Shown here piece by piece: positions 37,341 through 39,581 of a stretch of DNA of 39,658 bases; position 1 is the stretch's first letter; every line of letters starts with the position of its first letter. This stretch comes from Deltaproteobacteria bacterium (GTDB lineage: Bacteria > Desulfobacterota > Binatia > UTPRO1): contig JADLHM010000143.1 in assembly GCA_020848745.1 (NCBI GenBank), forward strand, positions 1 to 39,658, written 5' to 3'. A program made the position numbers and the translations under genes. Below the pieces are notes generated by a model that was given only the letters and a program-made list of their open reading frames with translations, made no database searches and was not told the origin of the DNA.

Positions 37341-39401
37341 ATGCACGACGCCCACGAGTTCCTGCGGTCGCTGACGGTCGTCCTGGGCGTCGCGGCGGTG
37401 ACGACCGTCGTCTTCCAACGCTTGCGCCAGCCGGTCGTCCTCGGCTACATCGTCGCGGGCCTCATCGTCGGGCCCCACGTGTCCATTCCCCTGGTGGCGG
37501 ACCGGCCCACCGTGCAGGCACTCTCGGAAATCGGCGTCACCCTGCTGATGTTCTCGCTCGGTCTGGAGTTCAGCCTCGGCAAGCTGGCGCGCGTCGGCCC
37601 GACGGCGGGCTTCACCGCGATCCTGGAATCGCCCTTGGTGGCGTGGCTCGGCTTCCTCGTCGGACGCACTTTCGGCTGGACCGTGCTCGAAAGCATCTTC
37701 ATCGGTGCCGCGATCGCGATCTCCAGCACCACGATCATCGCCAAGGTGTTCGACGAGCGCCGCGTCGAGCGGCGGCAGCGCGAGCTGGTCCTCGGCATTC
37801 TGCTCATCGAGGATCTGGTGGCCATCGTGTTCATGACCGCCCTCACGGCTATCGCCACCGGTGCCGGTCTTTCCGCAACGGCGCTCGCGGCAACCATCGG
37901 TAAGCTGACCGCGTTCCTCATCGTCCTCCTCGTCGCCGGCATGGCGACGATCCCACGCTTCGTACGCTTGGTGGTGAGCCTCGAGCGCGAGGAGACCACG
38001 CTCGTCGCCAGCATCGGCATCTGCTTCCTCACCGCCTGGGTGGCCCACACCTTCGGATACTCCGTCGCGCTCGGCGCGTTTCTCGCCGGGTCGCTGGTCG
38101 CGGAGTCCGGCCATGCCGAGCCGATCGAGCACCTGGTCCGTCCGGTGCGAGACGTGTTCGCCGCGGTGTTCTTCGTTTCGGTGGGCATCCTGATCGACCC
38201 GGCATTGGTGCTCGAGAACTGGGGTGCCGTCGTCGTGCTCACGGCGGTCGTGATCTTCGGGAAGATCACCGGGGTCACGGTCGGCGCGTTCCTCACGGGC
38301 AGCGGCATGCGAACAGCGCTCCAGGCCGGGATGAGCCTCGCGCAGATCGGCGAGTTCTCCTTCATCATCGCCGGGCTCGGGCTGACGCTCGGCGCGACTC
38401 GCGAGTTCCTCTACCCGGTCGCCGTCGCGGTGTCCGCGATCACGACCCTTACGACCCCCTGGCTCATCGCGGCCGCCGAGCCCGCCGCCGACTGGGTCGA
38501 TCGGAAGCTGCCCGCGCCGCTCCAGACGTTCACCACCTTCTACGGTACGTGGCTGGAGCGGATGCGCGAGTCATCGGCCCGGCGCTCGGGGAGCGAGCTG
38601 CGCGGATTCCTGCGCCTGATCGCCGTCGACGCCGCGCTCCTCTGCGGCCTGATCGTCGCGACCGCGATCTGGATCGATGACGGGGCCGCACTCCTGACCC
38701 GCTGGCTCGGCCTCGACTCCGTGCACGCCCTGCTCTTCGAGATCGGGGCGGCGATCGCCGCGTCACTGCCGTTCGTGATCGGGATCGGCCGGTTGTCGCG
38801 CCGGCTCGCCGACGCCCTCGCGGAGTCGGCGCTGCCGCGTCGTCGCGGCGCCCTCGATCTCGACGCCGCGCCCCGCCGCGCCCTCATCGTGACGCTCCAG
38901 CTCGGCATCCTCCTCGGCGCGGCGGTCGTGGTCGTGGCCGTGACCCAACCATTCCTCCCGAGCTACCCGGGTCCGATCCTCCTGCTGGCGCTGCTCGGCG
39001 CCTTCGGCCTCGCCCTCTGGCAGAGCGCCACCAACCTCCAAGGCCACGTGCGCGCCGGCTCACAGGCGATCGTCGAGGTCCTCACGACGTATGCGCGCCG
39101 CAGCGGCGACGTCGCGACGGCCCCACCCGCGCTCACCAGCGTCCACGCGATGCTCGCCGGCCTCGGCGAACCGGTGGCCGTGCGCCTCGACGACGGGAGT
39201 CCTGCGATCGGCCGGACCCTCGCGGACCTGAACCTGCGCGGCCGGACCGGCGCGTCGGTCCTCGTCATCCTGCGCGCCGGCCTCCCGGTCGTGCCGACCG
39301 CGAGCGAGAAGCTCGACCGCGGCGACGTCCTCGCGGTCGCCGGCACCCGTGCCGCCATCGCGAGCGCGACCACGCTGCTGCGCGGAGACGCGACGGGCTA
39401 G
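37341..39401 (+). CDS. CPA2-family cation/proton antiporter (KefB/YbaL-like)
   Basis: A 686-residue membrane protein. The first roughly 390 residues are a Na+/H+-exchanger domain with about 12 helices. CPA2 landmarks are QPVVLGYIVAGLIVGP, EIGVTLLMFSLGLEFS, ISSTTIIAKVFDER and LGILLIEDLVAIVFM with the ion-binding Asp, then MSLAQIGEFSFIIAG. A second hydrophobic stretch (about 425-570) follows. The last 80 residues resemble a TrkA C-terminal (RCK-C) ligand-binding domain (IGRTLADLNLRGRTGASVLVILR). No TrkA-N (NAD-binding) domain lies between them. K+ or Na+ export against protons is likely. The TAG stop lies within the left arm of the repeat element at 39398. Confidence 0.9.
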   Translation: MHDAHEFLRSLTVVLGVAAVTTVVFQRLRQPVVLGYIVAGLIVGPHVSIPLVADRPTVQALSEIGVTLLMFSLGLEFSLGKLARVGPTAGFTAILESPLVAWLGFLVGRTFGWTVLESIFIGAAIAISSTTIIAKVFDERRVERRQRELVLGILLIEDLVAIVFMTALTAIATGAGLSATALAATIGKLTAFLIVLLVAGMATIPRFVRLVVSLEREETTLVASIGICFLTAWVAHTFGYSVALGAFLAGSLVAESGHAEPIEHLVRPVRDVFAAVFFVSVGILIDPALVLENWGAVVVLTAVVIFGKITGVTVGAFLTGSGMRTALQAGMSLAQIGEFSFIIAGLGLTLGATREFLYPVAVAVSAITTLTTPWLIAAAEPAADWVDRKLPAPLQTFTTFYGTWLERMRESSARRSGSELRGFLRLIAVDAALLCGLIVATAIWIDDGAALLTRWLGLDSVHALLFEIGAAIAASLPFVIGIGRLSRRLADALAESALPRRRGALDLDAAPRRALIVTLQLGILLGAAVVVVAVTQPFLPSYPGPILLLALLGAFGLALWQSATNLQGHVRAGSQAIVEVLTTYARRSGDVATAPPALTSVHAMLAGLGEPVAVRLDDGSPAIGRTLADLNLRGRTGASVLVILRAGLPVVPTASEKLDRGDVLAVAGTRAAIASATTLLRGDATG

Positions 39402-39581
39402 CCCGCATGTCTCACCAGGTCCCTGCTGCGAGCGTCCATCGCACGCCATCTCGGGCCGTACTCGCGCCTCGCTCCTCGACGGACTGTCGAGTCCGCCTGC
39501 GTCGCTCGGCGCTCCGTGCGGCCCGATCTGGCGCACGCTTGACGCTCTCGCGACGTGGACCTGGTGAGAAATGCGGGCTAG
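39398..39581. repeat. 184-bp near-palindromic element with 25-bp terminal inverted repeats (MITE/REP-like)
   Basis: The left arm (39398-39422, beginning CTAGCCCGCAT) and right arm (39557-39581, ending ATGCGGGCTAG) are inverted copies at 24 of 25 bases. Inside, further blocks pair in nearly the same register: GCGAG 39428-39432 with CTCGC 39547-39551, TCGGGCCG 39451-39458 with CGGCCCGA 39519-39526, and GGACT 39481-39485 with AGTCC 39490-39494 at the centre. Both ends finish in CTAG, possibly a duplicated target. There is no open frame of note. It supplies the antiporter TAG stop. It could be a miniature transposable element, a REP-type fold-back repeat or a large terminator. Confidence 0.75.

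Follow-up and report, generated by a model that had tools for sequence, protein, structure and literature searches.

The fold-back segment of 184 bp that follows a cation/proton antiporter gene in the window (the whole stretch of 39,658 nucleotides analysed) is, very probably, a non-autonomous element of the MITE type, moved in trans by an IS1380-family transposase and inserted at CTAG, with a maintained hairpin core as its interior. The element is short and transposase-free, exists in many dispersed copies, is flanked by a target duplication with corresponding empty sites and has ends in common with IS1380 elements. In the mechanism that we propose, an IS1380-family transposase would act in trans at CCCGCATTTCTCACC ends and insert the element at CTAG with a 4-bp duplication. 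As CTAG is depleted but present at TAG stops, copies would often land on a stop codon; the duplication would regenerate the stop, leaving the upstream protein unchanged, and the mRNA of the upstream gene would gain a 176-nt hairpin straight after the stop.

Architecture of the fold-back element

The segment 39398-39581 folds almost end to end with an energy of -120.2 kcal/mol, compared with a mean of -75.2 (sd 4.2) for 200 dinucleotide shuffles (z -10.75), which agrees with the preliminary description of the whole segment as one long hairpin. Its 25-base terminal inverted repeats match at 24 of 25 positions, as also described there, the sole mismatch being G/T at base 12, and the window contains the end 22-mer twice, the shuffles not once. 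Likewise, no transposase is encoded: the longest open reading frame overlapping the element, on the reverse strand, has no Pfam match. The CTAG described at both ends is present but does not belong to the element. It is the target-site duplication and lies outside, so that the mobile unit is 39402-39577 (176 bp) and not the 184 bp. The latter can be read as a duplication copy, an IS1380-type end of about 28 bp, the core, the second end and the other duplication copy (Table 1).

Table 1. Position of the host gene and of the parts of the element in the window
Feature	Coordinates	Strand	Basis
Host gene: cation/proton antiporter, 686 aa, Na_H_Exchanger and TrkA_C domains; TAG stop within the target CTAG	37341-39401	+	Pfam; the G001 orthologue ends ...CGCTAG without the element
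Left CTAG copy of the 4-bp target-site duplication; holds the antiporter TAG (39399-39401)	39398-39401		Single CTAG at empty sites in G001/G002, two in G000
Left terminal inverted repeat, IS1380 type A, CCCGCATGTCTCACCAGGTCC	39402-39422	+	Pairs with 39557-39577; first 15-17 bases common to IS1380 element L235
Conserved unpaired motif CTGCTGCG (family CTRCTRCG), internal loop	39423-39430	+	C26, T27, C29 and T30 invariant in 24 divergent members
Core hairpin, about 120 bp, elsewhere also without IS1380 ends	39430-39549	+	In G005, G065 and others, only model positions 33-152 match; core-only profile matches 176-bp members
Conserved apex, family CTCGACaTA..TAtGCCTGCG, here CTCGACGGACTGTCGAGTCCGCCTGCG	39475-39501	+	Alignments; helix 5 covaries
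Conserved right-arm motif, family CTCGCnACG, facing the CTRCTRCG loop	39547-39555	+	G153, A156, C157 and G158 invariant
Right terminal inverted repeat, IS1380 type A, CCCGCATTTCTCACCAGGTCC on the minus strand	39557-39577	-	End searches and comparison with IS1380 ends
Right CTAG copy of the target-site duplication	39578-39581		Empty-site comparison

The antiporter stop codon and the target duplication

The left end of the segment overlaps the antiporter TAG, and the preliminary description took the element to provide this stop codon, with either insertion there or recruitment as a 3' end as its origin. Comparison with relatives supports the insertion but not the supply of the stop codon. The antiporter orthologue of G001, which lacks the element, is in register up to ...CGCTAG and then diverges, and that of G002 aligns to near the same codon and differs beyond. 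Because the element-free G001 orthologue already ends in CTAG, the antiporter stop codon is independent of the insertion; it predates the element, which landed on it.

The comparison of empty sites, suggested earlier as a check, was carried out by joining the flanks of nine host insertions and searching sister genomes with them. Six orthologous sites in G001/G002 carry a single CTAG. At the L005, L007, L008, L012 and L017 sites, relatives have one CTAG where the host has the element between CTAG copies, some of them mutated. Direct CTAA/CTAA duplications at the IS1380 element L075 and at a short copy in L195 indicate that the 4 bp are a direct duplication outside the element and not an inverted extension of its ends. 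The outermost bases vary between TTAG and CTAG in several copies, which we read as mutation of one duplication copy.

Insertion sites at gene ends

CTAG occurs six times in the window (1-39658) against 112 occurrences expected from base composition, and two of the six are the element's own duplication. The tetranucleotide is thus about 20-fold depleted, yet it is often a stop codon in these genomes. Insertion sites in G035, a genome of another family, were classed with a simple codon-score call of open frames: of 41 sites, 25 coincide exactly with TAG stops, four of them at a CTAG where two convergent genes terminate, and no site falls within a gene. The 24 other CTAGs of the same flanks comprise 9 stops, 2 sites inside genes and 13 intergenic sites, and the excess of stop codons among the insertions over these other sites was not significant (25/41 versus 9/24, p 0.08). 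The landing on stops is mostly explained by the targeting of CTAG, itself depleted. One full copy (L131 1501-1678; G035:C2:10959-11136) occupies the TAG stop of a gene ending PCPCGSGKKYKRCHGR, presumably a typical SecA C-terminus motif, for which we call this gene secA-like. In relatives from the genus of G035, too diverged for a base-level view of the duplication, two genes, one of them the secA-like gene, lack the element and end at the same position.

Copies in the host genome and beyond

The host assembly (G000; 4.88 Mb, 155 contigs) contains 11-12 related copies plus fragments. Besides the window copy, these include seven near-complete copies of 95-96% identity, others truncated at contig ends, a single diverged one (77%) and some ten fragments or short forms. 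The end 17-mer has 36 matches in this genome, compared with 4 for a reversed control pattern. These matches, together with copies in relatives, bear out the many dispersed copies predicted from end searches; no copy with a transposase between its ends was seen, which had also been considered, and the likely IS1380 helper shares only the ends. Five host loci (L014, L015, L016, L018 and L020) are one-ended remnants of about 40-50 bp, with a single end and the subterminal motif, often near gene ends. Short core-less copies also exist (e.g. G000:C100:3767-3827), and would be consistent with loss of the palindrome through deletion between short repeats.

Homologues were detected by BLAST in 10 of 58 genomes searched, and, within the class, a covariance model found the element or its core alone in 30 of 148 genomes. 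G035 carries about 122 near-identical copies, which occupy roughly a tenth of its estimated CTAG sites; 44 of them average 99.6% identity to their consensus. A scan of 84,980 genomes for CTAGCCCGCATTTCTCACC returned at least 119 loci. Among the matches listed, loci are labelled Gammaproteobacteria, Acidobacteria, Planctomycetota, Gemmatimonadetes, Nitrospira, Deltaproteobacteria, Actinomycetota and others, and since most matching records are metagenome bins, single phylum labels may be wrong. The spacing of end pairs among the matches listed clusters at 176-177 bp, a class homologous to the window element, with further values near 126, 159, 213, 240 and 265 bp. Gammaproteobacterial loci of these latter sizes (L146, L175, L195, L202, L205, L236, L243 and others) are CTAG-flanked and have the same ends, and their interiors form several further families. 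No match to the element was found in plasmid and phage records.

Ends shared with IS1380 elements

Within the class, 33 of 98 genomes encode transposases with the PF13701 domain. Four full IS1380 elements of 1.6-1.7 kb (L075, L077, L078 and L079) terminate in CCCGGATTATTCATG or a close variant of it and are flanked by CTAR; the same ends, here called type B, are found on the diverged host copy L012 and on copies in G050 and G043. A wide scan of genome contigs yielded L235, an IS1380 element of 1,639 bp with CTAG on both sides, the type A ends of the window element (CCCGCATTTCTCACC) and a transposase of 460 aa (PF13701, E 2e-150). IS1380 and MITE have only about 15-19 terminal bases in common, and their interiors are unrelated. 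The proposed link with IS1380 therefore rests on these shared ends and on the duplication, from which we infer, with good support, mobilization by an IS1380 transposase.

Helper and MITE were not found together. A search of the host genome for the IS1380 transposase (PF13701) gave no match, so that the autonomous helper expected of a MITE family is missing from this assembly, and G035 contains only a broken IS1380 remnant (C153:2559-2834). The helper may have been lost from the host, or may lie on unassembled sequence. Many MITEs have no resident helper, and its absence consequently lowers the assignment of the helper rather than the MITE status. Lone end matches in G035 were also considered as a possible autonomous element and discarded: the one on C29 is an ordinary copy, and the remnant region of C153 has no matching left end.

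A core hairpin that occurs on its own

In a class-wide search with the covariance model, only positions 33-152 were matched in G005, G065, G040, G145, G054, G083 and G008. These core-only copies form hairpins of about 120 bp that have different outer arms and lack IS1380 ends. When a sequence-only profile was made from these copies, with no 176-bp member included, it found the interiors of 176-bp elements (E 4e-18 for L174, 8e-15 for L203), with weaker matches to L055 (2e-7), L113 (7e-7) and, at only 7e-4, the window. The interior of the window element shares about 80% identity with a copy in G008 (L405, also L056). Core-only copies are located a short distance past stop codons, next to tRNA genes (L390) and between the genes for 23S and 5S rRNA (L404); where orthologous sites in relatives were compared, the copies were absent. 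In our reading, the interior is not an IS1380 remnant; its maintained core also exists as a separate dispersed hairpin, and occurs with two types of IS1380 ends.

In the L404 case (positions 180-302; G083:C52), the hairpin stands within an rRNA operon and must hence be transcribed and tolerated there. Among seven core-only copies of G005 (L386-L392), the outer arms differ and yet remain mutually complementary, unlike those of the decaying IS1380-ended copies. More speculatively, and as a possibility to which we give less than even weight, the core (apex CTCGACRTA..TAYGCCTGCG and internal-loop motifs) could be an ancient selfish or functional module that swaps ends (IS1380 type A, type B or unrelated), hitching on different transposases across several phyla, its folded single strand being recognized by a putative protein.

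Conservation of the fold and its possible causes

Twenty-four divergent members (183-186 bp including the duplications) were aligned without structure. Their consensus hairpin has 49 pairs, with 90% of pair cells able to pair compared with 74% after shuffling. Two-sided changes were counted at 34 pairs, in 182 cells against 65 in shuffled alignments, and none of 500 shuffles reached the observed value; shifting the partner by one column reduced pairing to about 40%. Some invariant positions in these 24 members are unpaired (C29, T30, A156 and C157). Within genomes the picture is opposite: 55 copies (11 from the host and 44 from G035) show 45 one-sided breaking changes versus 1 compensatory change. 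Resident copies decay, whereas the lineages still spreading keep the fold, whose pairing has been retained across several bacterial phyla. We infer that the hairpin is selected in propagating copies, either as an aid to mobilization or because the host tolerates, or benefits from, a hairpin at a 3' end; selection on the fold would be compatible with a DNA role in transposition as well as with an RNA role that makes insertions tolerable. Mobility and a covarying structure, opposed to each other in the preliminary description, prove to hold together, given the dispersed copies and the covariation.

Covariation might also arise in the absence of selection. Template switching from one arm to the other during replication is a known mutational process for quasi-palindromes and could account for part of the covariation by re-perfecting the palindrome; the element would then be an ordinary decayed deletion derivative of IS1380, as its ends would suggest. 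The single compensatory change, against 45 breaking ones, in the 55 resident copies argues against it, as does the persistence of invariant mismatched positions such as C29/A156. The interior, unrelated to the IS1380 ends and found without them, does not fit a decayed derivative, and we consider this account improbable.

Somewhat less likely still is that hosts keep the hairpin at certain genes as a structured RNA or as a signal at the 3' end (terminator, RNase barrier or stabilizer), with dispersal as an incidental outcome. The strong covariation, the conserved unpaired motifs and the many copies directly after stop codons would suit such a signal, as would the position of core-only copies a short way past gene ends, next to tRNA genes and in the interval from 23S to 5S rRNA. 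Close relatives nevertheless differ in which sites are occupied, with empty sites precise to the CTAG, and the uncompensated decay within genomes would be unexpected if each copy were useful. The hairpin is GC-rich but is followed by TTCTGCCACC and not by a T-run, for which an intrinsic terminator was rejected. In Rfam 15, no family scored above its gathering score for the 176-bp element or the core-only copies; a match to MIR918, an animal miRNA family, was set aside as a palindrome artefact (35 bits versus 268 for gathering).

As a non-autonomous IS1380-type element, the repeat would exemplify a nearly harmless bacterial transposon, in which CTAG targeting leads to insertion at the gene end and the duplication rebuilds the stop. 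More than 100 copies can therefore be reached, including those at a secA-like gene and at the stops of convergent genes. The covarying interior of the 24 members, set against the neutral decay of resident copies, offers a testable case of a fold needed in propagation, while the core-only hairpins suggest that a repeat family absent from Rfam is widespread.

Comparison with known systems

Searches of the open-access literature (sequence strings; IS1380 plus MITE), with subscription papers and ISfinder outside their scope, returned no description of the element. The proposal of a previously unlisted MITE or REP family is upheld for the MITE, by the copies and the CTAG duplication, and probably for its being unlisted, but not for the REP. 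REP/REPIN sequences, associated with RAYT transposases, are likewise dispersed hairpins near gene 3' ends; they are palindromes of 20-40 bp tagged GTAG or CGTC (PMC3733652), and an element of 176 bp with a DDE-type CTAG target duplication was not assigned to them.

The closest relation is with the IS1380 family (DDE_Tnp_1_4, PF13701), whose CCCG(C/G)ATT..TCAxx ends and CTAR flanks (L075, L077-L079 and L235) resemble those of the element, which differs by its lack of a transposase, its unrelated interior and its full-length hairpin. MITEPsy1 from Pseudomonas syringae, a small non-autonomous element of 100 bp that was shown to transpose, likewise generates duplications of CTAG (or YTAA), and a tentative assignment links it to the IS5-like ISPsy2 (PMC3189936); its ends GGAAGGTCTGAAAAAGCC / GTATCCTCTGAAAAAGCC differ, and the available part of that report describes no conserved full-length hairpin. 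By its example, and given that no IS1380 was found in the host genome, another 4-bp-duplicating family such as an IS5-like one could be the mobilizer, which is very unlikely in view of the full IS1380 elements with type A or type B ends and CTAR flanks and of the distinct GGAAGGTCTGAAAAAGCC ends of MITEPsy1.

The piggyBac transposons, which are eukaryotic, share a tetranucleotide target with the element, in their case TTAA, and excise without a footprint (PMC7351741). IS1380 serves as an outgroup in piggyBac trees (PMC10813416), and by analogy these two points suggest that IS1380 may excise from CTAG in the same scarless manner.

In form, the element recalls the enterobacterial ERIC/IRU (127 bp) and YPAL/RU-2 (168 bp) repeats, MITE-like dispersed hairpins transcribed with neighbouring genes; ERIC is classed with TA-motif-ended elements, while YPAL has duplications of 3-26 bp and internal inverted repeats (PMC2229807). 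Its length and CTAG duplication distinguish the element from ERIC, and its fixed 4-bp CTAG and terminal inverted repeats set it apart from YPAL as described. Unlike both, it has IS1380 ends and is found in several phyla. We file the element as an IS1380-type MITE of a new variety, ERIC/YPAL-like in form.
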